DNA of 27,498 nt, from IMG/VR virus record IMGVR_UViG_3300047551_001361, positions 1 to 27,498 of that record. One strand, given 5' to 3'. The DNA is from a virus. The position numbers were made by a program, and so were the translations under genes. Below, in pieces: positions 277 through 18,971 of this stretch (position 1 is its first letter; every line of letters begins with the position of its first letter). The notes under the pieces are model-generated. The model saw only the letters and a program-made list of their open reading frames with translations. It searched no databases and had not been told where the DNA came from.

Positions 277-284
277 TATTTATA
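277..284 (-). promoter_or_regulatory. T4-type late promoter upstream of gp13
   Basis: The minus strand reads TATAAATA, an exact match to the T4 late promoter recognised by the phage late sigma factor (gp55) with the sliding clamp. It ends 24 bases before the gp13 ATG, leaving room for a short leader with the AGGTGG site. The TAA stop of the upstream glycosyltransferase gene (280-282) lies inside the octamer. Confidence 0.75.
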
Positions 285-1962
285 ACTTCCTAAAACACAT
301 CAAGTTATTAACAAACCAACCAATATGATATCCACGTTTACAAAATTCTATACAGTCATAAGTCATTTTCTCATCGTATATTAGACCTAAACCCTCAAAT
401 TTTTCTTTCCAAAAGTGTTTATGTCTACAATTTATATGACGATGCCCGCCTTGCCCTGGTCTGGCTGCTGTCCACATTAAAGTAGAATTAGATTTCATGC
501 TATCAAAAACTGCTTTGACTATATCATCTGAGTATTGAGGGTCAATATGTTCTGCGACTTCAAATGAAATGACGAATTCTGATTTATATTTTCCGTTTAA
601 TTTTAGTAAATCTTCTTGTATCAAATAATTTTTTTCATCGACTCTTTTGTCTATGTCAATACCAAGACAAGGGATACCAATCTGATTTAAAGAATAAGTG
701 TGAATTCCTGGACCACATCCTAAATCCAATGCTTCTTTAGGATTAATATAAGATTTAATCCATTCAGCAAGTCTATTTGCAAAAGGTTTTTCTTCTTCTT
801 GTATTGTGTCGAAATCGATTTTATCTGAATTTTGTGGCAATATTTTTTGCATAAAATCTAAATCTGTTCTGTTTTCATTTACACGATACCATCCTTTGTC
901 ATTATGTACATCTAAAACAGACTGAAAAAACTCTTCATATTTTGAAGCAACTGCTTCTAAAGAGAAATTATTGATTGCCCAATCTCTACAGTTTTGCGGA
1001 TTTATTTTTTCTATATTCCTAGCTGCCCAAACAAAATGATCAAAAGTTCTGCAACGATATCCAGTAAGCCCGTGTATATTGTTTTCAGTAAAAGATCCCC
1101 AATCAGTAGTAATTGTTGGTGTTCCAGAAAATAAACATTCTACCTGTACTCCACCAAAAGGTTCTATATAAAAACTTGCGACAAAAGCCCCTTTAGCTTT
1201 CGACATTAATTGTTTTCTTTTTTCTACATCGGCATATCCAACAAACTCTACGTGATCCGGCACTTTATCATATCCACAATCTTTTAAATTGTTTTGTCCA
1301 GCTACAACTAATTTGGCACCAATCTCTTTTGTTGTCTGAATTGCAACATGAATACCCTTTCCTTCATACACTCTACCAAGAAATAGAAAATAATCATCTT
1401 TTTCTTTCGAGAAATGAAAGTCATCAGGATCAAAATAATTTGGAATCACAGTATCATACCAACTTTGTTGGCAAGAACCGACAGCATTTAAGCCGTAATA
1501 AGCATGATAAATTGCATACGATTCGAAAATTTTATATTTTGCCCAATGACCGCCTGCATATCCAATGCCTGGTTCAACACAGATCAAATCTGGGTGTGCA
1601 TCACAAACTGGTCGGTGACCAGAACCCCAAAAGGGTAAAATAAAATCGTCTTTTCTTTTTCTTCTATAGATTTCTTTTATTGCATTTGCATAAAAAGTTT
1701 GATATGCATGATCGCCAGTATTGAAAGTGAAAAATTTTTCTCTCCAATTATAATCACCATAGGCGATTTTCAAATCTTCGTTTGTAGTGACCGTGACATG
1801 CTCTGTACACTGTAAGTTGGAATCTTCATGACCATAATGAATTACTTCATGACCTCTATCAGTCATCATCTTACCAAACTTAAAAACTTTTTGTGTATAG
1901 GCACAAGCCACATATTCTTTATTCGTAACGGTATGCGGCAAACCTAATATGTGAAACCTCAT
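280..1962 (-). CDS. Glycosyltransferase (GT4-type) fused to SAM-dependent methyltransferase
   Basis: I place the start at ATG 1962 (560 aa), preceded by AAGGA at 8-base spacing; the frame can be read back to a TTG at 1980, but that codon lacks a good site. Residues about 1-345 look like a GT-B fold retaining glycosyltransferase of family GT4: LGRVYEGKG at about 195-203 opens the nucleotide-sugar domain, and the E-x7-E signature EPFGGVQVE lies at 267-275. Residues about 395-560 are a class I methyltransferase: motif I LDLGCGPG near 412-419, the acidic loop GIDID near 434, and EVAEHI at 468-473. No signal peptide or membrane segment is seen, so it should act in the host cytoplasm. The acceptor is unknown. 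It is the last gene of the unit that begins with the collagen-like fibre, directly before gp13, so a virion protein or its glycan is a plausible target; that is inference. Confidence 0.85.
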   Translation of the reverse strand: MRFHILGLPHTVTNKEYVACAYTQKVFKFGKMMTDRGHEVIHYGHEDSNLQCTEHVTVTTNEDLKIAYGDYNWREKFFTFNTGDHAYQTFYANAIKEIYRRKRKDDFILPFWGSGHRPVCDAHPDLICVEPGIGYAGGHWAKYKIFESYAIYHAYYGLNAVGSCQQSWYDTVIPNYFDPDDFHFSKEKDDYFLFLGRVYEGKGIHVAIQTTKEIGAKLVVAGQNNLKDCGYDKVPDHVEFVGYADVEKRKQLMSKAKGAFVASFYIEPFGGVQVECLFSGTPTITTDWGSFTENNIHGLTGYRCRTFDHFVWAARNIEKINPQNCRDWAINNFSLEAVASKYEEFFQSVLDVHNDKGWYRVNENRTDLDFMQKILPQNSDKIDFDTIQEEEKPFANRLAEWIKSYINPKEALDLGCGPGIHTYSLNQIGIPCLGIDIDKRVDEKNYLIQEDLLKLNGKYKSEFVISFEVAEHIDPQYSDDIVKAVFDSMKSNSTLMWTAARPGQGGHRHINCRHKHFWKEKFEGLGLIYDEKMTYDCIEFCKRGYHIGWFVNNLMCFRKL

Positions 1963-1982
1963 AATAAAATTCCTTAACAATG

Positions 1983-5313: not shown

Positions 5314-7770
5314 TTATGTTTCAACATATTCAAATATTAAAGACAAATCTTCTCCTGTTGCCAATGTTCCTACAGCAGTTATATCTACAGTAATATAGTC
5401 TCCTTGGACTACAGTTATTGTAGTGTTTACAACATTACTTGTAGTATTTGCAACAAGTGCTATATTTGCATTCGAGATTCCATTTTTATTTATTCGTATA
5501 TAAGCATTCGCACCACTTGGAGCAGTTGTCAAAAAGGTCAACATTCTATTAATTTCATATCCTTTGTTTATCCACCACCTTTTTGTTCCATTAAAAACAG
5601 AAAGTGATCCACTTAAATCTAACGTTTTAACTAACTTAGCTGGACCAGTTGCTCCTTGTATTCCATTTGATCCGGTAGCTCCTGTTGGTCCTGTAGCTCC
5701 TGTTGCACCACCAGGATCACCTTGCGGTCCTGTAGCTCCTGTTGCACCACCAGGATCACCTTGTGGTCCTGTAGCTCCTGTTGGTCCCGTGGCTCCTGTT
5801 GGACCCGTGGCTCCGCTTGAGCCTTGCGGTCCTGTAGCTCCTGTTGCACCACCAGGATCACCTTGTGGTCCTGTAGCTCCTGTTGGCCCAGTAGCTCCTG
5901 TTGGTCCAGTAGCTCCTGTTGGTCCAGTAGCTCCTGTTGTTCCTGCCCCTGTAGAGCCCTGAGGTCCAGTTGCTCCTGTTGTTCCTGTAGCACCAGGCAC
6001 TCCCGTAGCTCCTGTTGCTCCAGTAGAACCGCTCGGACCTGTAGCCCCTGTGGTTCCAACAACACCAGTAGCTCCAGTTGAGCCCGTTGCTCCATCTATA
6101 CCTTGCGAACCTGTTGCGCCCTGTGGACCAGTAGAGCCTTGAACCCCAGTTGCACCAGTTGCACCTTGTGTGCCTGTGGCTCCTTGAACCCCAGTAGCTC
6201 CTGTGGAACCAGTAGCACCATCTTGTCCTGAGACACCAGAAGATCCTGTGGCTCCTTGTGGTCCTGTAACACCAGTTGCTCCTTGTGGACCCGTTGCCCC
6301 ATCAGAACCTGTGGCTCCTTGAATGCCAGTGGCTCCAGTAGCTCCTGTTTCTCCGATATCTCCTGTTCGGGCAAAAGTTACAATTACGTTTGCATTATCA
6401 GCTAAGGAAATTATTCCAGACAAATAGTCTACTGGAACTTCAAAATAATTATTGCCATGCGTATGACTTCCTGTAATAGAAAACATCGCATAATTTGCTG
6501 TATTCGACTCTTCTGTTACCGAAAAATGTCCTTTTATAGTCGAAGTGCTATCATCTATTGTCTGTAAATAAGAAAAATTATTTAAAGAATTGAGGTCGGT
6601 GTAGTTTATATACAGAGTATTCGCGGAAGAAAAATCAGAATTATTAAATTTTAAATAGCCTGAACCAGGATCACTATCAGAAATATCTGTATCGAAAAGA
6701 TATTCGAAAGATGCCCCACCAAAACTTCCTGCCGGACCGGTTGCTCCTTGGGATCCAGTAGCACCGGTTGCGCCTATTCCGGTTGCTCCTTGGGATCCAG
6801 TAGCACCAGTCGAGCCTTGTGAACCTGCTGGTCCTGTAGATCCGGTTGCCCCATCTGATCCAGAAGTTCCTGTAGCACCTATTGGACCTGTTGCGCCAGT
6901 TGATCCTTGAACTCCTGTTGCGCCTTGAACTCCTGTTGCACCTTGTTCTCCTGTGGCTCCCTGAACCCCGGTTGAACCTGTAGCTCCCTGTGATCCGGTA
7001 GACCCTTGAGGACCTGTTGCTCCAGTTGATCCAATATCTCCAGTGGCTCCTTGGAGACCAGTAGACCCTTGAGGTCCTGTTGCTCCAGAAGAACCGATTG
7101 CGCCAGTAGATCCAATATCTCCAGGATCTCCTTGAGGTCCTGTTGCGCCTTGAGGTCCTGTTGCACCAGTCGCACCATCAGGACCAATAGGGCCAGTAGA
7201 TCCATCAGGACCTGTAGCTCCAGTAGCGCCATCAGGCCCTACAGGGCCAGTTGTTCCTGTCGCACCTATGTCCCCAGGATCGCCTTGTGGTCCAAGTTGT
7301 CCTGTTGCCCCAGTTGCTCCCGAATTTCCTTGAGGGCCTGTAGCTCCAGTAGCACCAATGACATTTGTAGCATCAAATTTTATTGATTTGATATTACTTG
7401 TTGTATTCGTTGAAATAGTTATATTATTACCAGAAATAAACTCGATTGTATCTAAACCTTGAGCTACAAGAGTATTACTTCCGTTAACTATCCAATACTT
7501 AAATGTGCTGTTAATACCAATGAGAATCTCGCCCGGAGATAATTCATTGACATTAAAACCAGATTCATCTTCGAAACGAAGAGTGTTTACATTGCTGAAT
7601 GCATTTGTTATGTTGCTGTTAGCATCACGAATGCTAACGGTTAAAACTGACGGGCCTGTCGCACCTTGTGATCCGGCTATCGTGGGACCTACCCAATAAC
7701 CGGCTGTATTTATGACTGCTGTATTGCCTACAGTCAAGCCATTTTTGACTATAAAATCTTTTTGCGACAA
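5314..7770 (-). CDS. Collagen-like tail fibre protein with TTG start (818 aa)
   Basis: The start must be TTG at 7770 or later: an in-frame TGA lies two codons upstream, and an AGGGG element precedes the TTG by about 10 bases. It gives [15 protein letters not shown], a usual N-terminal attachment sequence of marine phage fibres. Residues 1-138 are non-collagenous. Collagen-type Gly-x-y triplets, mostly GAT, GPT and GPQ, run over about 139-350 and 470-710. A roughly 115-residue globular domain lies between the blocks, and a 108-residue beta domain ([11 protein letters not shown]... LIFEYVET) ends the protein. Triplet phase breaks occur at [17 protein letters not shown] and the GDPGGATG units, which would kink the helix. 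It probably forms a trimeric fibre with the C-terminal domain as tip and trimerisation head. An exact late promoter lies at 7797-7804. Threonine in most triplets offers many possible O-glycosylation sites. Confidence 0.85.
5687..5866. repeat. 39-base repeats encoding a 13-aa collagen unit
   Basis: Units of 39 bases start at 5687 and 5726 in tandem, with a further copy at 5828-5866; they differ by at most a base or two. Each encodes the 13-residue step containing [13 protein letters not shown]. Identity at synonymous positions suggests recent copying rather than selection on protein alone. Confidence 0.8.
5879..5932. repeat. 18-base tandem repeats encoding GPTGAT
   Basis: Three consecutive 18-base units (5879-5896, 5897-5914, 5915-5932) are identical except for one base in the first. 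They encode consecutive GPTGAT hexapeptides of the collagen-like fibre. Confidence 0.8.
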
Positions 7771-7786: not shown

Positions 7787-7806
7787 TATATAAGATTATT
7801 TATATA
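7787..7806. repeat. Short inverted repeat overlapping the collagen-gene late promoter
   Basis: The arms TATATAA (7787-7793) and TTATATA (7800-7806) are perfect inverses around a 6-base loop, with flanking CC and GG that could also pair past a 2-base bulge. The right arm covers most of the TATAAATA octamer. In such AT-rich DNA this may be chance. Confidence 0.4.
7797..7804 (-). promoter_or_regulatory. T4-type late promoter upstream of collagen-like fibre
   Basis: The minus strand reads TATAAATA exactly, ending 27 bases before the TTG start at 7770. The TAA stop of the 197-aa gene (7800-7802) lies within it, the same arrangement as the gp13 promoter. Confidence 0.75.
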
Positions 7807-8393
7807 GGAATCAAAGTTGCAGAACCTTTGATAGCAGTTGATGCATTCGTTGGAGTAAATAAAACACTTAATGCACCTTCACCAATTGATGCATCAAATG
7901 TTCCTAAAGAATTTGCAGTCTTCACTTCACCGTATTGGGACATATGTACTGTCGTATCATCATGTATCATACTCAACTCTATCATATGATACTCGGTGCC
8001 ACTTGTCATTTGAATTAAATACTTTGCGGAACGGTAAGTGCTTGTAGACCAAGAGTCTAATGTAATTTGAGATACAGATGATGTTGTTACAGATGTGGAT
8101 TTAAATACGGAATGATTATTTAATTTAATCGAGCCTTCAACAGTCAGTAACCCAGTTGTTTTATTAAATTTCAGTTTATCAGAAGCGCCGAAATCTCCCA
8201 GATCATTGAACTGAATTTCGGTATCTAATCCTGAAGGATTTCCAGCTGGATCAAACTGTATTACATGACTAGTCGAATTGCCATAGAATAACTTGCCATC
8301 ATAATGATTGATGGCAAGTTCTCCTGGTTGCAACGAAGAAGGAACATTTCCTGATGAGCCAGAATGTTTTAACTGTATTATTGTGTTTGCCAT
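7800..8393 (-). CDS. Small fibre-like structural protein (197 aa)
   Basis: ATG at 8393 gives MANTIIQLKHSGSSG, closely matching the start of the 556-aa fibre (MANTVIQLKYSSVTG). Both continue with a GELAIN/AEPAYS step and a GKLF/GVLW strand. This N-terminal module resembles the tail-attachment domain of many marine phage fibres. The rest (FNKTTGLLTVEGSIKLNN, then IQMTSGTEYHMIELSMIHDD) looks like a short beta-rich tip domain; the HMIELSMIHDD strand recurs in marine phage fibre C-termini in my recollection. It sits 10 bases after the coiled-coil gene, has only a weak ribosome-binding site, and its stop lies in the next late promoter. It could share a docking site with, or substitute for, the longer fibre. 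Confidence 0.72.
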   Translation of the reverse strand: MANTIIQLKHSGSSGNVPSSLQPGELAINHYDGKLFYGNSTSHVIQFDPAGNPSGLDTEIQFNDLGDFGASDKLKFNKTTGLLTVEGSIKLNNHSVFKSTSVTTSSVSQITLDSWSTSTYRSAKYLIQMTSGTEYHMIELSMIHDDTTVHMSQYGEVKTANSLGTFDASIGEGALSVLFTPTNASTAIKGSATLIPI

Positions 8394-8403
8394 CTAGTGA
8401 ATC

Positions 8404-9075
8404 TTAGAATGTTCCTCCAGACCTAACACCATCATCTGGAGTTTCCGTTTGAACTGTGTCTTCACCTAACTTTATTTTCTTCAGCTTTGTTGCGGGAACA
8501 ATACTCTCAAGCCTTGAAATATATTTAGTTAGCTCATCAATACGGGTGTTATTTCTGACTAGAACATCCTGTGATTCACTTTTTACTTTTACTAATTCAT
8601 TTTTGACTTCATTAAGTTGTCGCATGTAATCATTTGCCGCTTGTTGAAGTCTTAATTTTTCTTGATTTAAATTACCAAAACTTGTTATTTGAGAATCTTT
8701 TTGATTTAAGTCATTTCTTAAATTATCTCTTTCAACAGTTAAAGAATTGATAATTCTATCTTTCTCCGATGAGAGATTATTTAGAGCTTTATCTCGTTCA
8801 ACGGTAGATGAATTTGAAAGAGCAGAATTTTCAGCTTTAAGAGAATTTATAGCTCTTTCTTTTTCGCCTATTTCTTGGTCTTTTGCAGAAACAACTTTTT
8901 GTAATTCTTCGTTTCTTCCTGCTAACTCTTGTATTTTTCTTTTAATTTCGTTCGCTTCATTATTATCGCTTTTTATTACTTCAAGTTGCGCCTGAAATAA
9001 AATGTTTTGCTTAACAACCGAAAGAAAGTTGTCAAGCAAAACCTCTACATAAGCATTTTGTAATCTCACATCCAT
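8404..9075 (-). CDS. Coiled-coil structural or accessory protein ending in GGTF (223 aa)
   Basis: ATG at 9075 follows AAAGGG at 7-base spacing. After a short start (MDVRLQNAYVEVLLDNFLSV), residues about 30-190 are rich in Glu, Lys, Gln, Asn and Leu with heptad spacing (for example KIQELAGRNEELQKVVSAKD and EIGEKERAINSLKAENSALS), predicting a long coiled coil. A repeated phrase (TVERDKALNNLSSEKDR, then LTVERDNLRNDL) points to internal duplication. The tail ends DDGVRSGGTF, matching the ends of the two preceding gene products. T4 has the coiled-coil fibritin (wac) in this interval, but I see no fibritin foldon, so equivalence is unproven. It could be a fibre shaft, an adaptor or an assembly chaperone. 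Confidence 0.75.
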   Translation of the reverse strand: MDVRLQNAYVEVLLDNFLSVVKQNILFQAQLEVIKSDNNEANEIKRKIQELAGRNEELQKVVSAKDQEIGEKERAINSLKAENSALSNSSTVERDKALNNLSSEKDRIINSLTVERDNLRNDLNQKDSQITSFGNLNQEKLRLQQAANDYMRQLNEVKNELVKVKSESQDVLVRNNTRIDELTKYISRLESIVPATKLKKIKLGEDTVQTETPDDGVRSGGTF

Positions 9076-9098
9076 GATAAAACCCTTTCAAAAATAAT

Positions 9099-10769
9099 TT
9101 AAAATGTGCCGCCATTCAAGTGTGCGAAGGTTGGTGCTCCAGAAGAATTAATCTGTAAAATATGTCCTTCGGTCGCAGAAGTCAATGAGCTTAATGCTCC
9201 AGTTGTAGAAGAAGTATCAGAAACGATAACTCCTTTGATCGAGAAGGAAGAAGTTCCAGTACCGCCTCTAGCAACACCTAATGTTCCAGTAACTACTTGA
9301 GATGTATCGATGGCGATTGCATTATTAGTAATAGAACTTACTCTTCCATAAGCATCTGTAGTAATAGCGAGAGTTCTGCTAACATCACCAAATGTTCCAG
9401 CAGTTCCTGTATTAGCTAAAGTCGCAATCTTGGATCCATCAAAATATAATGCTGCTCCTGTCGTGTACGTATCATTATTAGTACCACCGCGATTTACTGC
9501 AAGCAAACCAGAAGTTACTTGATTTGCACCGATAGCTATCTCAGCTCCAGTTGCAGCAGAAACTCTTCCGTATGCATCTACAGTTAATGAAGTAATTGTA
9601 TTTGAAGAAGCTAATCCTCCGGTCAATGAATATGTTACATTGGCAAGTTCATTTAGTCCTCCAGTTCCATTACCAATTAAAATCGCACCAGAAGTAAATG
9701 TACTTCTTCCAGTACCGCCGTCTGCAACTGCAATATCTGAGAATAAACTCGAAACATTGCCTCCAACAATATCTGCATCTAAGACGGCTCTTTGAAATGA
9801 AGTATTCGCAACATCAATAATGTTATTTGGAGTATTCGTATCTAAAGAATCGTCTGTATAATTTTTAAATAGGTAATATTTTCCATCCGCTGCATGGCGT
9901 ACAAGACCGGTATGTCTCTTTGTTACACCAGCATCATCGCTATAGTGACCTAAGAATCCAATATCGACAGCATCAGACGTTTCGTTGTTTGCTGCTAACT
10001 GGATCATCGGATCATCTATCTTGATCGTATCAATGTCAAGGCTTGTTAGATTACCCGTGACTGCAATGTTTCCTGTTACGGTTAAATCTCCAGTAATTGA
10101 TTGATTTCCTGTTGTTCGGATAACCGTATTATCTACATCTATTCTAATACTGTCTGTCGGAGTAACAGAAGTAGTAATTCCATCTCCACCAACAAAATTT
10201 AACGAATCGGTCAATAAATCTATTGTATTCGAACCTGTATCAGCATTTACTGTCAGAGTTGTTGCTACGCTTACGTTTGCAGCATAACTAATTCTACCTT
10301 CAGCGTCTACCGTGAATGTTGGAATATTTGTCGATCCACCATAGGATCCTGCCACTACTCCAGTTTCTGAAAGATCAAAAGTTATATCCGCATTTGCCGA
10401 GCCGTCAAAAATAGAAGACCCCGAACCATCTCCGGTTAAATTGATATATCTTGGAGTCTGCAATTTGGTTGCAGTGTTGGCATTTCCTACTAGTTCACCC
10501 GCAATTGTTCCTACGATATTATTTGCGATAACATAGTTAAAACTTGCATTTCCAGTTAAATCTCTGAGAACGAGCGTATTGGCAGTTGCAGATGAAGTTG
10601 CATTGTCAATTTTCGTAGTGTATGATTTACCACCAATCGGAACTACGCCAGTACCATCATCAATCCAAAGAACTCCCGTTAAACTGGAATACGCAGGTTC
10701 CGCAACATTCAAGGTAGGAGGTTGACCTGTGACACTTGAATATTTTAATTGAATAACTGTATTTGCCAT
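9099..10769 (-). CDS. Tail fibre protein with repeated GRIS/GRVS modules (556 aa)
   Basis: ATG at 10769 follows AAGGA at 6-base spacing; the site lies in a small TTTCC-AAAA-GGAAA hairpin. The N-terminus MANTVIQLKYSSVTGQPPT, through GVLWIDDGTGVVPIGG, looks like a tail-attachment module shared with the 197-aa protein. The shaft has repeated phrases: GSYGGSTNIPTFTVDAEGRI early, and TVDAYGRVSAATGAEIAIG and TTDAYGRVSSITNNAIAID late, each followed by QVxxGxLxVxRGGT. The middle (ITGDLTVTGNIAVTGNLTSL, then IDDPMIQLAANNETSDAVDI) is of a type common in cyanophage fibres. The C-terminus is GHILQINSSGAPTFAHLNGG followed by TF. An exact late promoter lies 33 bases upstream, so it starts its own unit with the coiled-coil and 197-aa genes. 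Confidence 0.82.
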   Translation of the reverse strand: MANTVIQLKYSSVTGQPPTLNVAEPAYSSLTGVLWIDDGTGVVPIGGKSYTTKIDNATSSATANTLVLRDLTGNASFNYVIANNIVGTIAGELVGNANTATKLQTPRYINLTGDGSGSSIFDGSANADITFDLSETGVVAGSYGGSTNIPTFTVDAEGRISYAANVSVATTLTVNADTGSNTIDLLTDSLNFVGGDGITTSVTPTDSIRIDVDNTVIRTTGNQSITGDLTVTGNIAVTGNLTSLDIDTIKIDDPMIQLAANNETSDAVDIGFLGHYSDDAGVTKRHTGLVRHAADGKYYLFKNYTDDSLDTNTPNNIIDVANTSFQRAVLDADIVGGNVSSLFSDIAVADGGTGRSTFTSGAILIGNGTGGLNELANVTYSLTGGLASSNTITSLTVDAYGRVSAATGAEIAIGANQVTSGLLAVNRGGTNNDTYTTGAALYFDGSKIATLANTGTAGTFGDVSRTLAITTDAYGRVSSITNNAIAIDTSQVVTGTLGVARGGTGTSSFSIKGVIVSDTSSTTGALSSLTSATEGHILQINSSGAPTFAHLNGGTF

Positions 10770-10792
10770 TTTCTTTCCTTTTGGAAATTAAT

Positions 10793-10820
10793 ATTTTAAA
10801 CTATTTATAAGTTTTAAAAT
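10793..10820. repeat. Inverted repeat framing a late promoter
   Basis: ATTTTAAAC (10793-10801) and GTTTTAAAAT (10811-10820) are inverse copies apart from one extra T, and the late promoter octamer at 10802-10809 lies between them. The right arm covers the last codons and stop of the 186-aa gene. Possible chance pairing in AT-rich DNA. Confidence 0.4.
10802..10809 (-). promoter_or_regulatory. T4-type late promoter upstream of 556-aa fibre
   Basis: The minus strand reads TATAAATA exactly, 33 bases before the ATG at 10769, in the largest intergenic gap of the window (44 bases). It lies just after the stop codon of the 186-aa gene (10814-10816). Confidence 0.78.
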
Positions 10821-11374
10821 GTTCCGCCATAAACTGATCTTAATCCTATTTCGCCAATGTATCTGTATCCCATTACCATAATTACTTTAGATGATGTTAA
10901 AACTGTAGGTATGGAATTGCCTATAAAATGAAAAATTCCTGCTTGATAATCGAAAAACCATTCTCCAATTCCGGATATGCCAGAATCAAATATTTGAGTT
11001 CCGGTTGAAGCTGGATTGTTAGCGCCAGAATCATCGACGTATATTTTAACGAAATATGTGGATCCAAATTCTGGAGGTATCCAATCCGTTAGGTTTGTTT
11101 TCCATGTCGGATAAACTCCTGAAATTGATGTAGAAGTGGTATCAGCAACACATTGTATTCTTGAAGATCCTTGATATGATGCCACAACACCTTCGATACT
11201 ACTAGCCGTACTAGGAATTTCACTAGCCCTGGTCCAAATCCTATCTCCGCGATTCAAATACGGGCTAACAATAGACTCATTACTCGGGCTTTTGTTTATT
11301 GCTAAATCTGTTTTAGCAACACCAAATAGCTTTTTATATAATAAATCTGTTTTTTGTGAGTCGGTTACTGCCAT
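10814..11374 (-). CDS. Virion structural protein, cyanophage-type (186 aa)
   Basis: ATG at 11374 is directly adjacent to the stop of the 738-aa gene, so the two are probably translationally coupled. The N-terminus (DSQKTDLLYKKLFGVAKTD) is helical; the rest is beta-rich with notable segments WTRASEIP, YPTWKTNLTDWIPPEFGSTY, KIYVDDSG and FFDYQAGIFHF, ending VMGYRYIGEIGL and VYGGTF. This pattern recurs in cyanophage tail modules as an uncharacterised structural protein, in my recollection. The DYQAG...F pairing suggests a compact domain that caps or joins a fibre. The GGTF tail is shared with the next two gene products. Confidence 0.72.
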   Translation of the reverse strand: MAVTDSQKTDLLYKKLFGVAKTDLAINKSPSNESIVSPYLNRGDRIWTRASEIPSTASSIEGVVASYQGSSRIQCVADTTSTSISGVYPTWKTNLTDWIPPEFGSTYFVKIYVDDSGANNPASTGTQIFDSGISGIGEWFFDYQAGIFHFIGNSIPTVLTSSKVIMVMGYRYIGEIGLRSVYGGTF

Positions 11375-13591
11375 TTAATTACTCGAAGTTTCTATAGATA
11401 ATGCAGTTATGGATTGACCGCTAGTTAATTTTATTCTAACATAGATTTCATTAGTATCCGTACTTGAACTGGATATTGTTCCAAATGTACAAGTTTTGCT
11501 GTGATTTGTTACTGGCGAATTTAAAGTAACTGTTCCTCCTAATGCACAACCATTACTCCCATTTCCCGGCGAATTTAAACCTGGTATACCTGATCCCGCA
11601 TAAGAAGAAGCCATGCTCAACCATCCATTTAATGATGATGTAGTATCTATGATACTGCCAGGTAAAGCTACCCAAAGACCAGCTATAGTTCCTGTAAATT
11701 TTATATTGAATTTAGATACCGATGTTCTAACAAACTTGAAAGTAAAATATTGAGCTCCAGACCTTCCTGCACTCAAATCTGGACCTATTGGAAGATATCC
11801 AGTCGAATAATTAGTCTGATCATGTTTTAAGACTGAGCCGACAATAGTGGCATCATAAGATTCTAATGTGCTACTCTGACTATTAAAAACATTGGCATTT
11901 GATGTAAAAGATGGATTATCAGAGTCTCCAGGATTTATTATCCTAACTGCTAATCCATTTCCAATACCAACAGCAGATCCAAAAGTAATCGAAGATTCTT
12001 CCATTAAACTCGACGTTCCTGTTTTTCTTAGAATCACGTTTGAAAGCGCAGAAGTTAAAGATTGAGTTCCTATTTCATAACTGTTATCAACTCTTATGGA
12101 AGGACCAACCGAACTTGATCCAAATCCTGTTATTATAGAACAAGTAGAATTTACGGTAACGGATCCTGAACTTACATATAAATTTCTTTCCAGCGGATAA
12201 ATTATTCCAACATCTACATAATTATTACTTGCTGGAGCAGTAAAACTTCCTGCTGCAATACCAGTAAAAAAAGTATTCGTAGTAGGAAACATATCTCCAC
12301 TAAGTTTTGCAACATCTGCTCCAATTTCAAATACTGTAGAACTGTTATAATGCGGTATCGTACTCGAATAAGTTAATGATTCTGTACTTGGAAAAATGCT
12401 TAGATTACTAAACGTAGGAGTCCCTGGAGTGCTAGAGTCATAATACCATCCTATGGTATCAGTATATGTTCCTCCAGTATGTTGAAGATATACGTCATTC
12501 CAACCGGGATTAACAATACCCGTTGCTTGAGCATCAAAACTTCTCCAGAAATTAGGGGCATCTCCAGTAACTAGAGAATAATCTTTACTATCACTAATTA
12601 CTAAGTCATTATAAGTGCCATTAGCCGAATTTTCCGTAAATAAAACTTCTCCTGCTGGATTGTTATTTACATATACCGTCAATGTACCTGAACTTCCTGG
12701 GCCCATGTCATTAAATATATTAGTTTGATATGATGCACTTCTTCTCACATTCGAGACTAAAGTTCCACCAGGAACTATTCTAGAATTTATTGTGTTGTCT
12801 TGTTGCTGAAAATCACACATTCTATAAGAAGAAAAATCTAATATGGAGAGAGAAGTGTCTCCTGGAAAATAAGGAGGATAAGGAGGTATCAAACGAGTCA
12901 CTAATTGATTTATCAATGCTATTCCGTCGGTAACGCTTGTAGATGCATCAAACAATATTGCAGGAGAAGACAAATCGCCTAGGGTATTTAACCCCATCAA
13001 TAAATCATTCCCCTGTACTGTGTTTGCGAATTCGAAAGCTAGATTAGCTATATCAATTGCGACATTTACGACTTCAGAAACAGACTCAACTGTTGTGCTG
13101 AGAGTATCTATTGCTTGAACGCTAGTTTCTGCAACAGTCAATGCTTCAGAAGCATTTGTAACGACTTGATTGAATTGTACAGGCTCTTCACCAGGGCTAC
13201 CTATTGCTAATCCACCAGCAGTATTTCCAAGTACAATTCCGTCGATATCTACGGATCCAGGACCGACATAAAGTGAGTGCCATCTATATTGCTCAGAGCC
13301 AAGATAATAATAGTTGTCTATGGTCGGAACAATATTACCGGTTAAATTTAAATTCGATGTTAAATTACCAGCAGTCTCAAACTCCACCTTTTTCGAAATA
13401 AATTTTCCATTTGCAGAATCATATACAATAGTATCTCCATCCTGTAATACAGAAATATCAACATCAGATATATCAGTTAAAGAGATATTTAATTTCGGTT
13501 TATATTTGGGATCTGCAATAGTTGTGATTATATTTTGCTGAACCGAAACTTTTCCTATTGTCGCAGCAGGATTAATTCTTGCTTTTACCAT
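11375..13591 (-). CDS. Tail fibre or adhesin-like structural protein (738 aa)
   Basis: ATG at 13591 lies three bases after the stop of the 110-aa gene, with a short GAG-type site. The N-terminal 130 residues carry phrases typical of marine phage fibres: ISLTDISDVDIS, GDTIVYDSANGKFISKKVE, LNLTGNIVPTIDNYYYLGSE followed by QYRWHSLYVGPGSVDIDGIV. A helical stretch (about 140-190, NASEALTVAETSVQAIDTLS) may be a trimeric coiled coil, followed by a Pro-rich linker (RLIPPYPPYFPGD). The long remainder is Ser, Thr and Asn rich with many beta strands, ending in a domain with FTFKFVRTSVSKFNIKFTGT and a Cys-containing segment (SNGCALGGTV, KTCTFGT). It is probably a receptor-binding fibre; no enzyme motif is seen. 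Confidence 0.78.
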   Translation of the reverse strand: MVKARINPAATIGKVSVQQNIITTIADPKYKPKLNISLTDISDVDISVLQDGDTIVYDSANGKFISKKVEFETAGNLTSNLNLTGNIVPTIDNYYYLGSEQYRWHSLYVGPGSVDIDGIVLGNTAGGLAIGSPGEEPVQFNQVVTNASEALTVAETSVQAIDTLSTTVESVSEVVNVAIDIANLAFEFANTVQGNDLLMGLNTLGDLSSPAILFDASTSVTDGIALINQLVTRLIPPYPPYFPGDTSLSILDFSSYRMCDFQQQDNTINSRIVPGGTLVSNVRRSASYQTNIFNDMGPGSSGTLTVYVNNNPAGEVLFTENSANGTYNDLVISDSKDYSLVTGDAPNFWRSFDAQATGIVNPGWNDVYLQHTGGTYTDTIGWYYDSSTPGTPTFSNLSIFPSTESLTYSSTIPHYNSSTVFEIGADVAKLSGDMFPTTNTFFTGIAAGSFTAPASNNYVDVGIIYPLERNLYVSSGSVTVNSTCSIITGFGSSSVGPSIRVDNSYEIGTQSLTSALSNVILRKTGTSSLMEESSITFGSAVGIGNGLAVRIINPGDSDNPSFTSNANVFNSQSSTLESYDATIVGSVLKHDQTNYSTGYLPIGPDLSAGRSGAQYFTFKFVRTSVSKFNIKFTGTIAGLWVALPGSIIDTTSSLNGWLSMASSYAGSGIPGLNSPGNGSNGCALGGTVTLNSPVTNHSKTCTFGTISSSSTDTNEIYVRIKLTSGQSITALSIETSSN

Positions 13592-13594
13592 GTG

Positions 13595-13927
13595 TTATCT
13601 CGTAACAGACGGTAAAACAGTGACGATTCCTTCAACAACTCTCGTTACAACATTTTGTGGAGAAGTTATAATTAAATCATAAACATATCGTCCCGGAATC
13701 AAAGATGAGGTGTTTGATGAAGTTATCGAAAGAGTAATTTCACCATTAGCAGTCCCTGTAATGGACGCAGTTATAGTGGATGATGAAGATGAATAATAAG
13801 ACTTTCTCATCTGCGATTGAGCAGTATATGAATGTAAATTTAGGGCATTTCCATAAACATCTTCAACATTCACGGTGGTGCTAAAAGTCGCACCTTGCTC
13901 TACAGTTAATTCGGAAAAGGCTGCCAT
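13595..13927 (-). CDS. Small beta-sandwich structural protein (110 aa)
   Basis: ATG at 13927 lies one base after the stop of the 1680-aa fibre gene. The product begins MAAFSELTVEQGATFSTTVN and continues VEDVYGNALNL, SQMRKSYYSSSSS, ITGTANGEITLSI, IPGRYVYDLIIT and RVVEGIVTVLPSVTR. The order of strands (quasi-Ig, with an x-VxDxxGxxLNL turn and a GRYVYDL strand) resembles the N-terminal domain of baseplate upper proteins (BppU type) and similar phage Ig-like modules; this is an inferred likeness. Closely similar short proteins occur next to cyanophage fibres. It may be a connector between the long fibre and the baseplate or a fibre accessory. Confidence 0.72.
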   Translation of the reverse strand: MAAFSELTVEQGATFSTTVNVEDVYGNALNLHSYTAQSQMRKSYYSSSSSTITASITGTANGEITLSITSSNTSSLIPGRYVYDLIITSPQNVVTRVVEGIVTVLPSVTR

Positions 13928-13928
13928 T

Positions 13929-16900
13929 TTACTTATTCTTTAATTGTTCTAGTTTAGCATCTAATTCTTTAATTGCTTCGATTAGCAAAGGAACTAATCT
14001 TTCATAATGAACGGTCATATACTGGGAATCTATCGGTGCTGAAGTCACTACTTCAGGAAGAACTTTTTTAACTTGTTGTGCGCTTACACCAACTTTTCTT
14101 TCATCGGTATATCCAAGCTCTTTTGCAGTTTCGTTTGCTTTGTAGAAAAAACCTGAAAGTTCTTTCACTTTATCAAGAGCATTTTCGATATTGCCTAATT
14201 TGTCTTTCAATCTGTCATCGGAGAAATAAGATGTTATTTCACCGGTTGCTACAATTGATGCAGTAACATTGACTCTTCCTGAAGAACCCATTCTGCTAAT
14301 CAAAGCAATATCATTATTGGAAGCAATTGCGATTCCAGCTCCTTCTTCTGCTGAACTCATTATGTTCGTGGCAGCTCCGACTCTTATATAATTTCTTACG
14401 TTTGAGGTCGTACTGGTTGTACCTCCAGTTATAATAACTCCCCCACCCTTTTCATTCCCAACAGATGCAGCCAATAACTCGTTTGGAATAACCATTATTC
14501 CAGTAGATAAATTATTAGCATGCTGCATTACAAAAGGAACATTTGCAGCAGAATCTACATCGGTAATTCCTTTTAGAATCTGATTGAAAACGGAAACATC
14601 GGCAGAGGATATTGTACCTGTTCCATTGATATCATAAGAAGGTTTGACTAATATCCTAGCTTTGTTGTTATTTACATATGCAAGGCGAGCTTCACTTGCA
14701 GTAAGATCGCCAAGATTTAAGTTTCCATCATTGAATGCGCCAGAACGACCGACTGCTAAATTGTAAAAAGTAGGATCGCTAGGAAGAGTTACCGAAGAAG
14801 TAGAAATTCCCGTGATAAATCCCGTATCATCTATTTGCAAAACTGGAACTTGACTAGAACTTCCGTATGTTCCCGCAACAAATGCAGCACTATTAACAGT
14901 TTCGGTCGTTAAAGAAGTAATATGTCCAGTAGAATTTACTGTTATAATTGGTATTCTTCTATTTGTTCCGTATGTTCCTGCTGACACTCCAGAAGTATCG
15001 TGCGATGCAGATAACGCACCAGTACCTGCATTCAGTGACAAAGAAATTGGCGCCGTTCCTAATGCACTTCTTGCAACTCTCGTTCCATTATCATAAAGTG
15101 CTGTGGCATGAACATTTTTAGAAACTCCGATTCCTCCAGTAACAATTAAGGCTCCGGTCGTTTTAGATGTTGCTTCTGTAGCATTCGTGAGAGTAACTGC
15201 GGTAGCAGTTGTAGAACCCCTGGAAGTGACTGTCGCTAAAGTATCCGCTTCAGCAGGAAAAGCAATAGATAAATTAGCAACCGCAGTTATTCTGCCTGTG
15301 GAATCAACAACGATTCTAGGAATACTTGTTGATGAACCATAGTTTCCTTGAACCGCTCCAGAAGCTGGAAGCCTTGCCGAATTTAATGTTCCAGATGTTA
15401 TGTTTGTGGCATTAGATGTGTCTGTAGTTGCTGATGTTGCTAAACCAGAAACTGCACTAGATGTTATGGCGATAGCTTGCTGTGCCGCAGACGTTATTCT
15501 TCCTGTTGAATCTACTGTGAACGCCCCAACAGTTGCAGGCCCCCCATAAGTCCCTATAGTTACTCCAGAAGCTGGGAGCCTTGCCGAAGTTAATGTTCCA
15601 GATGTTATGTTTGTGGCATTAGTTGTGTCTGTAGTTGCTGATGTTGCTAAACCAGAAACTGCTGCGGAGGAAATGGATATTGCCGTATTTCCCGCGAAGG
15701 TTAAGTGACCTCTCGAATCTACTCTAAAAACGCCAACAGAAGAAGCGTTTCCATAATCTCCTGCTGTAACAGTGGAATTATCATGAGAAAATACGCCTGT
15801 TCCGCTACTGTATGATATGGGAGAAGTCGCCGAAAGAGCTTCTCTAGCTCTACTTGTTGTATGATAAAGATTGGTGCCTTCAGCTAAATCTGTTGTTGTT
15901 TTTGGAATTCGATATGAAGTTGTACCATCAAAAAATTCCCATACGTCATGAGTTTCATTCCAACGAAGATATGTGTTTGTAGAAGACCCCCTATTGATTA
16001 TGATTCCTGCATTTTGAGAAGGTGCTGTAGAGTTAGGTAAATCCGAGTTTAAAACTATTTCATTATCACCAATATTTAATTCGACCGTATTAATTGTAGT
16101 AACAATTCCAGAAATAGTTAAATTTTTGCTTACTATAACATTACCGGAAAATGTAACATCGGTTCCTATAGCCTGAGTGGATCCGCCTGAGGTGATTTTT
16201 AAGAACGAAGAATCTGTATAATTTTTTAAATTGGTATTAGCTACATCAACATAATTCTTCATGTTTGTATTAGCCACATCCACATAAGACTGCATCTTGG
16301 TATTGGCTGTAGATACTGCTACATCCACATAAGACTGCATCTTAGTGTTAGCTACATCCACATAAGACTGCATCTTGGTATTGGCTGTAGATACTGCTAC
16401 ATCCACATAAGACTGCATCTTAGTGTTAGCTACATCCACATAAGACTGCATCTTGGTATTGGCCGTAACGATATTGTCACTTATCGTTTTTGCTCCAAGA
16501 GAACTTAATGCTGTCGTTGTGCTAGTAGAATCGATACTACTACTGATAGAATTAGTGGTTAGAATGTTTTTATAAGATGTGGAGCTGTCTATATTAAACA
16601 CATCTCTTATTTGCCATGTATTCGATGAAGCATTCCAACGAATATACGCATTTGCTGTTGAATTTACTCCACCAACACCTCCATCTACTCCTCCGGAAGT
16701 TGCACCTCTAAACACACCAAAATATGCGCCTGAAGTAGTAGTTACAGGAACAACGGAGCTTATGGTGAGAGTATCGGTGTCATATAAAACATCACCATTT
16801 AATATAAAATCTCCCGCAACAGTCATTTTTCCTTGAACTGTAGAATCACCCGTAACCGTTATTCCACCAGTTATAGTTTGACTAGAACTGGTTAATTTTA

Positions 16901-18971
16901 AAAATGTGCTATCTGTATAATTTTTTAAATTGGTATTAGCTACATCCACATAAGACTGCATTCTAGTATTGGCTACATCCACATAAGACTGCATTCTAGT
17001 ATTGGCTACATCCACATAATTCTTCATGTTTGTATTAGCCACATCAACATAAGACTGCATTCTAGTATTGGCTACATCAACATAAGACTGCATTCTGGTA
17101 TTGGCTACATCCACATAAGACTGCATTCTGGTATTGGCTGCAGTGACATGATTTACTGTTGGCGCTGTTGTTGTGCTTGTTCCGCCAAGAGTATCTTCTA
17201 GTTGAACAACTCCCGTTTGATCAGTAGTAGCGGAACGAATTGTAGTGTTTACCGCTCCAGTTATATGGCCTGTGGTGTTCACCACATAAACAGGAATAAT
17301 AATATTAGAACCATATGAACCTGCGGTAACTCCGGATGTATCATGAGAAATTGAAAGATCACCGGTTCCCGAATTTAAAGTTGTAGAAATTGGAGCTGTT
17401 GCAGATGCGGTTCTTGCGACTCTATTTCCATTGTCATAGACTGCATTACCATGAATGTTTGAGCTTACTGCAACGCCACCATTAATTTTTAAAGCACCAA
17501 CAGAAGTTTTAGATGTAGATTCTAAACCACTTCCGAGTGTCAAATTGCCAGTAATTGTTCCATTACCTTGAACTGTTAGCGATCCATTTGCACCGCCAAG
17601 AGAAGTATCTGCTGCGTAAATGAATACATTACCAGCAGAATTAGATGTTCTATCTCCAATGGCTACTAGAACTGATGTATTAACAGCACCGGCAGCATCA
17701 CCTCTTACAGTTAAATTTCCTGATATGAAAGCGGATCTTGAAACTCCTAATCCTCCAGCAGTCGTAATTCCAGCCAAAGAATTTGATGTTGCTTCAAGAC
17801 TTGAGGTAAATCTTCCTACAGGGGATACAACAGAAGTTGATGATACTAAATTTCCTGTTGTAATATTAGCCGTGATTCTAGCGTTCTCAGCAACAACGGA
17901 ACCCGATGCAACGAAATGGGCGCCGGTTGTATTAGAAGTGATTCTAGCGTTCTCAGCAACAACGGAACCCGATGCAACGAAATGGGCGCCGGTTGTATTA
18001 GAAGTGATTCTAGCATTATCTGCAACTAGTGATCCAGATGATATTACGTTTCCGGATGTTGTATTAGAAGTAATTCTAGCGTTCTCAGTAACAACAGACC
18101 CCGATGATATAAAGTGTGTTGCTGTCGCATTTGATGAAATTCTAGCAGTTTCGGCTACTAATGAATGAGTAGCATTTAAATGAGAAACATGAATATTTGC
18201 AGTAACACCCAGACCACCAGAAACTCTGAGAGCTCCCGTTGTTGTGCTTGTTGAAATTAATCCACTTCCTATATCAATGTTTCCAGTTACAACTCCATTT
18301 CCTTCTAACAAGAGAGATGCATTAGAACCATTATTTAAAACATCACCCGCTCTTATACGAACATTAGCAGAAGTATTTGAAGTAGGAGAACCAAATTCAA
18401 TCAATACACTAGAATCCGGATAAGCATCTCCAGTAAATGAAACATTTCCAGAAACAAATAAAGACTTTCCTATTCCCGCGCCACCAGAAGAAACGATTGA
18501 ACCTGTTACATTTGAAGTGCTTTCTTGTGAGGAGTTTACTATCAAATATGAGGTATTAGTAGTTCCATAAACAGAAATATTGCTATTAGCTACAACATTG
18601 TTGGTAGTAATATTTTCAGTGACTTGAAGGTTTTTATTAATTGTCGCGCTATTTGCGACATATAAAGAATTATTTTTTCCCAGAATCGAAACATTTGAAC
18701 CAACTGTTAAATTACCTGTTTCGGATGGGCGAGATCCTAAAACTAAATTTTTTCCTACAGTAACATCCGTAGAAAATAAAGCAGCATTTGAAACAGAAAG
18801 GGGAGTTCCTTCGGCAGTTATCGAAATAGAACCATTAGAAGTTACGGATAAAATTCCATTCGATTTAGTATAATTACCAGTTTCGATATTATTGATAGCA
18901 TTCGCCGACTGATTGGTTTGAATTCTCCATTCATCAATCGTGTTTATTCTTGTAATATTTGGTATAGACAT
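13929..18971 (-). CDS. Long tail fibre with repeats, dockerin-like loop and S74 chaperone (1680 aa)
   Basis: The ATG at 18971 shares its A with the TAA of the 77-aa gene. The N-terminus SIPNITRINTIDEWRIQTNQ is characteristic of marine phage fibres. Tandem 22-residue repeats (core ARITSNTTGAHFVASGSVVA) span about 250-370. Two blocks of 11-residue repeats (TRMQSYVDVAN, TKMQSYVDVAN), about 609-690 and 835-925, each end NLKNYTDS and look like hendecad coiled coils. Repeats of the form VDSTGRIT...AIAI follow to about 1380. A dockerin-like loop DINGTGTISSAD lies at 1447-1458. The C-terminus is an S74-type intramolecular chaperone with SDDRLK (Ser1584, Lys1589), VGVSAQQVKKVLPEVV and VHYERLVPLLIEAIKELD; in this family the domain trimerises the fibre and cuts itself off at a Ser-Lys dyad. 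The role as a trimeric host-recognition fibre is strongly supported. Confidence 0.9.
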   Translation of the reverse strand: MSIPNITRINTIDEWRIQTNQSANAINNIETGNYTKSNGILSVTSNGSISITAEGTPLSVSNAALFSTDVTVGKNLVLGSRPSETGNLTVGSNVSILGKNNSLYVANSATINKNLQVTENITTNNVVANSNISVYGTTNTSYLIVNSSQESTSNVTGSIVSSGGAGIGKSLFVSGNVSFTGDAYPDSSVLIEFGSPTSNTSANVRIRAGDVLNNGSNASLLLEGNGVVTGNIDIGSGLISTSTTTGALRVSGGLGVTANIHVSHLNATHSLVAETARISSNATATHFISSGSVVTENARITSNTTSGNVISSGSLVADNARITSNTTGAHFVASGSVVAENARITSNTTGAHFVASGSVVAENARITANITTGNLVSSTSVVSPVGRFTSSLEATSNSLAGITTAGGLGVSRSAFISGNLTVRGDAAGAVNTSVLVAIGDRTSNSAGNVFIYAADTSLGGANGSLTVQGNGTITGNLTLGSGLESTSKTSVGALKINGGVAVSSNIHGNAVYDNGNRVARTASATAPISTTLNSGTGDLSISHDTSGVTAGSYGSNIIIPVYVVNTTGHITGAVNTTIRSATTDQTGVVQLEDTLGGTSTTTAPTVNHVTAANTRMQSYVDVANTRMQSYVDVANTRMQSYVDVANTNMKNYVDVANTRMQSYVDVANTRMQSYVDVANTNLKNYTDSTFLKLTSSSQTITGGITVTGDSTVQGKMTVAGDFILNGDVLYDTDTLTISSVVPVTTTSGAYFGVFRGATSGGVDGGVGGVNSTANAYIRWNASSNTWQIRDVFNIDSSTSYKNILTTNSISSSIDSTSTTTALSSLGAKTISDNIVTANTKMQSYVDVANTKMQSYVDVAVSTANTKMQSYVDVANTKMQSYVDVAVSTANTKMQSYVDVANTNMKNYVDVANTNLKNYTDSSFLKITSGGSTQAIGTDVTFSGNVIVSKNLTISGIVTTINTVELNIGDNEIVLNSDLPNSTAPSQNAGIIINRGSSTNTYLRWNETHDVWEFFDGTTSYRIPKTTTDLAEGTNLYHTTSRAREALSATSPISYSSGTGVFSHDNSTVTAGDYGNASSVGVFRVDSRGHLTFAGNTAISISSAAVSGLATSATTDTTNATNITSGTLTSARLPASGVTIGTYGGPATVGAFTVDSTGRITSAAQQAIAITSSAVSGLATSATTDTSNATNITSGTLNSARLPASGAVQGNYGSSTSIPRIVVDSTGRITAVANLSIAFPAEADTLATVTSRGSTTATAVTLTNATEATSKTTGALIVTGGIGVSKNVHATALYDNGTRVARSALGTAPISLSLNAGTGALSASHDTSGVSAGTYGTNRRIPIITVNSTGHITSLTTETVNSAAFVAGTYGSSSQVPVLQIDDTGFITGISTSSVTLPSDPTFYNLAVGRSGAFNDGNLNLGDLTASEARLAYVNNNKARILVKPSYDINGTGTISSADVSVFNQILKGITDVDSAANVPFVMQHANNLSTGIMVIPNELLAASVGNEKGGGVIITGGTTSTTSNVRNYIRVGAATNIMSSAEEGAGIAIASNNDIALISRMGSSGRVNVTASIVATGEITSYFSDDRLKDKLGNIENALDKVKELSGFFYKANETAKELGYTDERKVGVSAQQVKKVLPEVVTSAPIDSQYMTVHYERLVPLLIEAIKELDAKLEQLKNK
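14214..14225. other. Predicted S74 self-cleavage site (SDDRLK start)
   Basis: Codons for FSDD lie here on the minus strand, with Ser1584 at 14220-14222. In S74 chaperones the bond just before this Ser is cut after folding, using the nearby Lys (Lys1589). The mature fibre would then end near residue 1583, releasing a 97-residue chaperone. Confidence 0.65.
14598..14633. other. Dockerin-like calcium-binding loop in fibre
   Basis: On the minus strand this stretch encodes DINGTGTISSAD (residues 1447-1458). It follows the dockerin type I / EF-hand-like pattern DxNxDGxIxxxD except that the fifth position is Thr, and it is followed by a helix VSVFNQILKG as in dockerins. Only one loop is visible, whereas true dockerins have two. 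Confidence 0.55.
15356..15662. repeat. 100-base direct repeat, two near-identical copies 207 bases apart
   Basis: 15356-15455 and 15563-15662 differ at three positions as far as I can align by eye. They encode the NATNITSGTLxSARLPASG step of the 1680-aa fibre; the 207-base period equals 69 codons and contains one VDSTGRIT module. Confidence 0.8.
16277..16455. repeat. 78-base tandem repeat in fibre gene (26-aa unit)
   Basis: The 78-base unit at 16300-16377 is repeated without change at 16378-16455, and the similarity runs left to about 16277. Each unit encodes one 11-residue and one 15-residue step (TKMQSYVDVAN, then TKMQSYVDVAVSTAN). Confidence 0.85.
16919..17145. repeat. 33-base tandem repeats in fibre gene (11-aa unit)
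   Basis: Seven in-frame 33-base units encode TRMQSYVDVAN five times, NMKNYVDVAN once and NLKNYTDS last. The third to fifth units in gene order mix variant types, and the whole block parallels the one at 16210-16455. Confidence 0.8.
17875..18138. repeat. 66-base tandem repeats in fibre gene (22-aa unit)
   Basis: Four 66-base units run at 17875-17940, 17941-18006, 18007-18072 and 18073-18138. The first two are identical in all 66 bases; the other two have diverged. Degenerate protein copies continue just beyond. The unit encodes ARITSNTTGAHFVASGSVVA plus EN. Confidence 0.88.

Follow-up and report, generated by a model that had tools for sequence, protein, structure and literature searches.

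A C-terminal Gly-Gly-x-aromatic peptide on phage fibre proteins as the probable plug for the next fibre piece

The stretch of viral DNA analysed here, 27,498 bases of the record IMGVR_UViG_3300047551_001361 (hereafter the window), is a fragment with T4-like baseplate and fibre genes on the minus strand, in which three consecutive fibre-module proteins of 186, 556 and 223 amino acids (aa) end in the residues GGTF. We propose that this ending is one form of a C-terminal peptide, hydrophobic-[DN]-G-G-x-[F/Y] (the tag), which is likely to serve as the plug for an N-terminal domain of the next fibre piece, here termed the IQL socket (consensus MANTVIQLKYS..P..LNVAEPAYS...IGG). The plug would dock into this socket, and separately translated pieces would be joined end to end in gene order, i.e., anchor, adaptor, fibre segment and distal segment, with the first piece, the anchor, held at a collar of the LtfC type. 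The first joint in the window would link the tag of the 186-aa adaptor to the socket of the 556-aa fibre protein, and the second would link the tag of either the 556-aa protein or the 223-aa coiled coil to the socket of a 197-aa protein; in the window, where anchor and c0 body are fused, the joint between them is covalent. We infer the contact between tag and socket, a presumably trimeric geometry, the pairing of each tag and the order in the virion from the arrangement of the genes.

The order in which fibre pieces are strung together is known mostly from a few model phages studied by cryo-electron microscopy. A joint that can be read from sequence would predict piece-to-piece attachment in many unannotated phages, would explain why the arm survives when fibre genes are split, fused or swapped, and would give the attachment domain of the Mtd type a candidate partner.

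The module comprises the following features of the window (HMM, hidden Markov model).

13595..13927, minus strand: 110-aa LtfC/p132-like collar protein (hmmsearch against PDB sequences)
11375..13591, minus strand: 738-aa protein in which the c3 anchor domain runs directly into the c0 body; this joint has no tag and no socket
10814..11374, minus strand: 186-aa adaptor (phrog_9417); the same domain is the N-terminus of a long fibre in untagged relatives
10814..10828, minus strand: putative plug VYGGTF of the 186-aa adaptor, stop codon included; 16/16 distinct stand-alone homologues are tagged
9099..10769, minus strand: 556-aa fibre segment made up of IQL socket, repeat body and tag
10608..10769, minus strand: IQL socket domain, residues 1-54 of the 556-aa protein (HMM match)
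9099..9113, minus strand: C-terminal tag LNGGTF of the 556-aa fibre protein, stop codon included
8404..9075, minus strand: 223-aa coiled-coil protein with a tag at its end
8404..8418, minus strand: tag RSGGTF of the 223-aa coiled coil, after a variable linker, stop codon included
7800..8393, minus strand: 197-aa protein with an IQL socket of the distal type, without a tag
8259..8393, minus strand: IQL socket domain, residues 1-45 of the 197-aa protein (HMM match)

Results

Judged from the sequences, the fusions of pieces are the decisive clue to the partner of the tag. Most relatives encode the anchor as a separate, tagged protein; in the window and in loci L004/L005 it is joined directly to the next fibre protein (738 and 736 aa) and has no tag. 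The adaptor likewise occurs as a separate tagged protein in some phages, and in others it forms the N-terminal part of a long fibre. Where the pieces are separate, the downstream protein starts with an extra IQL domain, and where they are fused this domain is missing; no single chain combining anchor and IQL domain (c3+IQL) or adaptor and IQL domain (c11+IQL) was found. Stand-alone anchors were tagged in 36/36 distinct cases, with a socket in the next gene in 35, and a socket likewise came next after 15/16 of the stand-alone adaptors. In the two misses (L111, L013) the next open reading frame (ORF) runs off the locus yet begins with a socket; such truncated neighbours of tagged genes had an IQL start in 17/22 cases. 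Seen from downstream, c0 proteins with a socket were preceded by a tag in 21/21 cases, and those without a socket in only 1/29 with a known predecessor. Adaptors fused to the body and untagged had an IQL match next in 0/20, one of them (L014) ending in DYGFVS before an Mtd_N-like start. The 1020-aa protein of HTVC008M, in which the anchor is fused to a c1-like body, likewise has neither tag nor socket at the joint, and Mosig, a further cultured myophage of Pelagibacter, has the split form, with the anchor tag INAGAF followed by an IQL domain and the ending IDGGSF. Homologues lacking the motif, which the sequence-only reading had set against a meaning for the shared ending, thus exist for adaptor and anchor, namely when these are fused to the next piece.

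The extreme C-terminus S-L-x-T/S-A-S-N of the c0 family (window 11375-13591 and homologues) is kept whether tags are present or not, and the adaptor domain usually comes after the c0 protein; this end is perhaps another joint.

The sequence-only reading was borne out in its description of the window. The GGTF end is common to the products of 10814-11374, 9099-10769 and 8404-9075 and absent from all other called ORFs, and the three bodies are unrelated, falling into separate clusters (a phrog_9417 domain, a repeat fibre and a coiled coil). The likeness of the DNA is also real, with GGNGGNACNTTYTAA present three times in the window, each time at these gene ends, against 0.03 occurrences expected from dinucleotide shuffles. 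Megablast of window bases 1-25000 against 50,697 phage records found no near relative. Relatives were collected with the 186-aa protein (best 80 of 206 found), with the coiled coil as query (21 loci) and with the fibre (16 loci). Three of the first 105 loci are small pieces of the window itself. These and all later loci were gathered with module proteins as queries and are related sequences, so that the counts are not independent.

Among the 2,425 distinct ORFs of the 105 loci, 53/56 GGTF strings were C-terminal and 3 lay elsewhere. In the relatives the motif widens to hydrophobic-x-G-G-x-[F/Y], e.g., GGSF, GGYF, GGFF, DGGTY and DCGEY, and the C-terminal consensus hydrophobic-[DN]-G-G-x-[F/Y]-COOH occurs on non-homologous virion proteins of the fibre module only. 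Relatives differ freely at the middle position (T, S, Y, F, N and others), and C, A or S may stand in for the first glycine, so the conserved entity is the peptide. It is carried by at least five unrelated module proteins, i.e., the 80-aa anchor (c3), the 186-aa adaptor (c11), the fibre (c1), the coiled coil (c2) and, in L021-L025, the LtfC-like collar protein. Coiled coils of about 30% identity keep the end and do not keep the linker that precedes it. Searching 20 whole records for GGNGGNNNNTWYTAR placed 41/50 matches at fibre-module gene ends (positions matched to the loci), and the reversed control gave 31 matches in all.

The N-terminal helix of the tagged coiled coil (window 8404-9075 and homologues), VKQNxxFQAQ, is also well kept; this protein has no socket.

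Tags and sockets adjoin each other along the genome. A further 118 loci, for which the query was either the anchor family or a Limnohabitans phage DC31 protein and which include some contigs already seen, had the same order of collar, tagged anchor, IQL body with tag, and IQL start of the next piece. One locus (L199) forms a daisy chain of a 77-aa protein ending LDGGEF, an IQL 156-aa protein ending LDGGSY and an IQL-like 828-aa protein ending IDGGTY. In a test of 2,218 neighbouring pairs, a socket followed a strict tag in 256/364 and an untagged gene in 104/1,854, or, counted by cluster pairs, 33/48 vs 29/652. An aromatic end as such brought no excess, since untagged genes ending in F or Y had a socket next in 3/45; the exceptions were mostly a fibre followed by a tagged coiled coil. 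The window fits this pattern, with the 186-aa tag directly before the 556-aa socket and the coiled-coil tag directly before the 197-aa socket, all in the same direction; the gene after the 556-aa tag is the coiled coil and not directly a socket.

The adjacency was also approached from the other side, by scans in which socket sequences were the sole queries (190 loci) and the nearest upstream gene was taken as the predecessor. They yielded 180 IQL sockets, 4 without an upstream ORF, and a tag of the GG type stood before 166 of the other 176 (114/123 for previously unseen sequences), whereas an ending of a second, D-Y-G type stood before none. The sockets that the HMM found in unread sequence (G024, G022) each lie directly after a tagged gene (VIDCGEY, TIDGGSF).

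The same scans found 73 sockets of the Mtd_N type, 3 without an upstream ORF, and a GG-type tag preceded 0 of the other 70. Instead, the ending D-[YLFCW]-G-x-[LVIAF] preceded 53/70 (L252-L441), a count that is descriptive because the pattern was written after examples had been seen; this does not touch the finding that no GG tag precedes Mtd_N. Proteins that themselves carry an IQL socket end in GGx[FY] before IQL and in D-[YL]-G-x-L before Mtd_N. Two examples were seen before the pattern was written: Bbp9 of BPP-1 (L247:4599-6125), just upstream of mtd, ends in LADLGGIA and fits D-[YL]-G-x-[LI], and the 629-aa protein of HTVC008M that precedes an Mtd_N protein ends in TVDLGSVA.

The IQL socket itself appears to be a small beta domain distantly like the N-terminal beta-prism of Mtd. 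Neither window protein concerned (9099-10769 and 7800-8393) matched Pfam Mtd_N (PF18454), either at the curated cut-off or up to E 0.1; distal 'LRRGNTAQ' proteins of relatives have Mtd_N matches at E 1e-13 and 4e-9. An iterated socket HMM runs into Mtd_N family sequences, and hhalign of the socket against the Mtd_N profile gave 44% probability and E 2e-4, collinear from residue 1. The monomer model of a natural 110-aa protein consisting of socket and tag had a predicted local distance difference test score (pLDDT) mostly of 75-91 in the beta region and below 50 in the tag. Foldseek with the socket model gave no significant match in the PDB; phage N-terminal attachment domains (TSP3, hyaluronan lyase fibre, Mtd) appeared at E 0.25 or worse, with Mtd chains at prob 0.2-0.7 and E 0.7 or worse. 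In the Foldseek viral library, 2/3 matches at E <0.001 were annotated as Mtd N-terminal-domain proteins. VIA-align of the socket model returned mostly helix matches, with collagen XVIII at Z about 4.5, and was given no weight. The model of the 186-aa adaptor was of low confidence (mean pLDDT 48) and was left out of the fold search, and no usable relative came out of PDB sequence searches, for which the queries were the adaptor, the fibre, a DC31-type fibre, the socket, the anchor and a Pseudomonas phage neighbour.

The arrangement is present in the cultured phages Mosig, P-HM1, S-CBS2 and DC31 and in two Vibrio phages, 1.208.B and 172P1. Prochlorococcus phage P-HM1 has LtfC, a 73-aa protein ending VNGGSF, an IQL 559-aa protein ending IDGGTF, a 68-aa coil and a further IQL start. 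Synechococcus phage S-CBS2, which we take to be a siphophage, has an SGGSF end followed by an IQL protein ending IDGGTF and another IQL start. The Vibrio phages (Zobellviridae), presumably podophages, with which the locus tag of 172P1 agrees, have two tagged proteins, then an IQL protein ending IDGGSF/Y, then IQL. Across the six cultured-phage records checked, a tag stood directly before 7/10 sockets, an untagged coil before one and an HNH endonuclease before two. No GGx[FY] tags were present in the genes read of HTVC008M, S-RIM8 and Sinorhizobium phage Phosso, nor in those of the Pseudomonas phages KPP25, JBD68 and LESphi2 and Xanthomonas phage phiXF1, which have LtfC relatives.

The collar protein of the window (13595-13927) is homologous to LtfC/p132, matching the T5/DT57C sequences 8hqz_Q at E 5e-4 and 7qg9_R at E 2e-3, and matches phrog_3304 at E 2e-23; its homologues likewise match the T5/DT57C sequences. 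A 198-aa LtfC relative matches PDB 26dk_M over its full length at E 1e-25. LtfC occurs in 119/131 tagged loci of 10 kb or more. It is dissociated from the tag in four large records, all possibly incomplete: G011 (160 kb) and G012 (400 kb) contain a tagged gene with exactly one socket match adjoining it and no LtfC match, while G015 (131 kb) and G016 (222 kb) contain LtfC, no socket match and no tag in the fibre genes read. In L021-L025 (e.g., L022:6642-7046) the LtfC-like collar protein is itself extended by a 24-aa Pro-rich linker ending in DGGTF.

As side observations on the collar, this extension would place a plug on every collar subunit, and other chains of 26dk may show how anchors sit in it. 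In JBD68 and LESphi2 (L243:7581-7772, L246:7581-7772) the LtfC relative is followed by a 63-aa protein with a collagen-like stretch and a terminal W (QSEW, ATDW); it may be an anchor of the same kind whose aromatic end differs.

Discussion

Several observations weigh against a simple pairing of plug and socket. The pattern was widened after homologues had been seen, and the strict form GGx[FY] stood before 133/176 IQL sockets. Tags equal sockets in only 33/78 distinct modules (a module with neither left out), the commonest order being tag, socket with tag, tag, socket (T ST T S, 21 modules), which holds one tag too many; the window has 3 tags and 2 sockets. The surplus comes from the coiled coil, which contributes a tag and has no socket. 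The sockets of S-SKS1 and ACG-2014f that follow an HNH endonuclease and the one P-HM1 socket that follows an untagged coil lack a tag before them. When the preceding proteins are grouped into single-linkage families, the tagged ones shrink to 5/9 before IQL sockets, and the D-Y-G type, the pattern of which was written after the fact, is found in 5/10 before Mtd_N sockets.

The strongest alternative to a plug and socket is that tag and socket are independent folding caps: a trimeric piece translated on its own would have to be trimerised by an N-terminal domain and capped at the C-terminus, needs that fusion would remove. This accounts for the loss of both on fusion, and the socket model is weakly like trimerisation domains, e.g., those of collagen XV/XVIII. 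However, first pieces have a tag without a socket and last pieces a socket without a tag, and which ending a protein has goes with the socket that comes after it rather than with its own N-terminus, which makes folding caps an unlikely explanation.

It is less probable still that the tag docks on one common virion protein, for which the LtfC-like collar ring would be the most plausible choice, as with the fibre strands of T5-type phages. LtfC and tags do share most loci, and in DT57C the LtfA strands augment the sheets of the LtfC ring, as the available part of PMC10713586 describes. LtfC was nevertheless rejected as the common partner: the four large records separate it from the tag in both directions (in G015 and G016 by pattern search), the LtfC-like protein itself carries a tag in L021-L025, and the joint vanishing of sockets with tags would go unexplained. 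Of the earlier proposal of a docking tag for a common partner, the docking tag is thus supported, and the partner appears to be common only as a type of domain, the N-terminal socket of the next piece, rather than as a single protein of fixed identity (gp8 or the DUF4815 protein, for example). Nothing was found in favour of the chaperone handle suggested alongside it.

It is very improbable that the double glycine is a site of processing or ligation, like that of ubiquitin-like precursors, or that the terminal aromatic residue is a signal for a protease or for export. The position of GG plus two residues at the C-terminus would suit such a site, but Gly-Gly is not invariant: of the 166 tags before IQL sockets, 21 have C, A or S at position -4 and 12 have S at position -3.

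The last alternative, that the ending is a functionless remnant of recombination at gene ends, draws on a codon lean toward GG[C/T]GGAACATTC among GGTF tags (toward GGA, ACA and TTC, the second glycine being GGA in 64/88 distinct GGTF proteins vs 26% of Gly codons overall, and TTC being used in 56/88 vs 31%), but is hardly credible given that 27 different 12-mers encode the end in these 88 proteins, that codons vary within single records, that G-G-x-F/Y is kept while x changes, and that a tag found on different proteins and lost on fusion predicts the starting domain of the next gene.

The docking of a C-terminal plug into the socket of the next piece may be one instance of something wider. 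Tailed phages could possess a small set of mutually exclusive pairs of C-terminal plug and N-terminal socket that serve as a connector code for the order of fibre pieces in myo-, sipho- and podophages alike, comprising at least GGx[FY] with IQL and D-[YLF]-G-x-[LVI] with Mtd_N; we regard this generalization as tentative, with the chances somewhat against it. If it is true, the joint between Mtd and Bbp9 of BPP-1 is one case of it, and fibre order becomes readable from sequence.

In the literature searched, which consisted of the beginnings of abstracts and of passages, no C-terminal tag or plug of this kind was recognised, and the nearest parallels differ in definite ways. The beta-prism of Mtd presumably attaches the Mtd trimer to the tail fibre protein, according to a passage of PMC10743442, and is thus, like the IQL socket, an N-terminal attachment domain of a fibre-end protein; the window sockets differ in not being Pfam Mtd_N matches, and in the scans Mtd_N pairs with D-[YLF]-G-x-[LVI] tails and never with GGx[FY]. 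The T5-like LtfC/p132 collar is similar in that extended peptide strands attach the fibres to the virion (PMC10713586 and PMC10038345, in passages), but those strands are at the fibre N-terminus and are inserted into the collar, whereas the tags described here are at the C-terminus and are found even where a record has no LtfC. In K1-5/SP6 and Klebsiella phages, N-terminal conserved peptides of 7-11 aa dock second receptor-binding proteins on the anchor and are said to differ between phage groups (PMC6872550, in the part available). These too are short conserved peptides that join separately encoded proteins; here, in contrast, one C-terminal motif is found on unrelated proteins of myo-, sipho- and podophages. 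The N-terminal head domain of the CBA120 tailspikes TSP1 and TSP3 mediates attachment to a neighbouring tailspike (PMC8825819, in the part available), and TSP3 was among the Foldseek matches of the socket model (6nw9, prob 0.89, E 0.26, not significant), but the partner there is the XD domain and not a C-terminal peptide.

Other features of the window

The genes upstream of the module are the following.

25578-26903, minus strand: gp8-like gene
19208-25567, minus strand: DUF4815 protein
13929-18971, minus strand: S74 fibre

On the other side of the module, an 818-aa protein (window 5314-7770) has two collagen-like GATG-rich stretches; other frames and the reverse strand of its gene yield long spurious ORFs. 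At the end of the fibre genes, window 280-1980 encodes a 566-aa protein that combines a group 1 glycosyltransferase with a methyltransferase domain.

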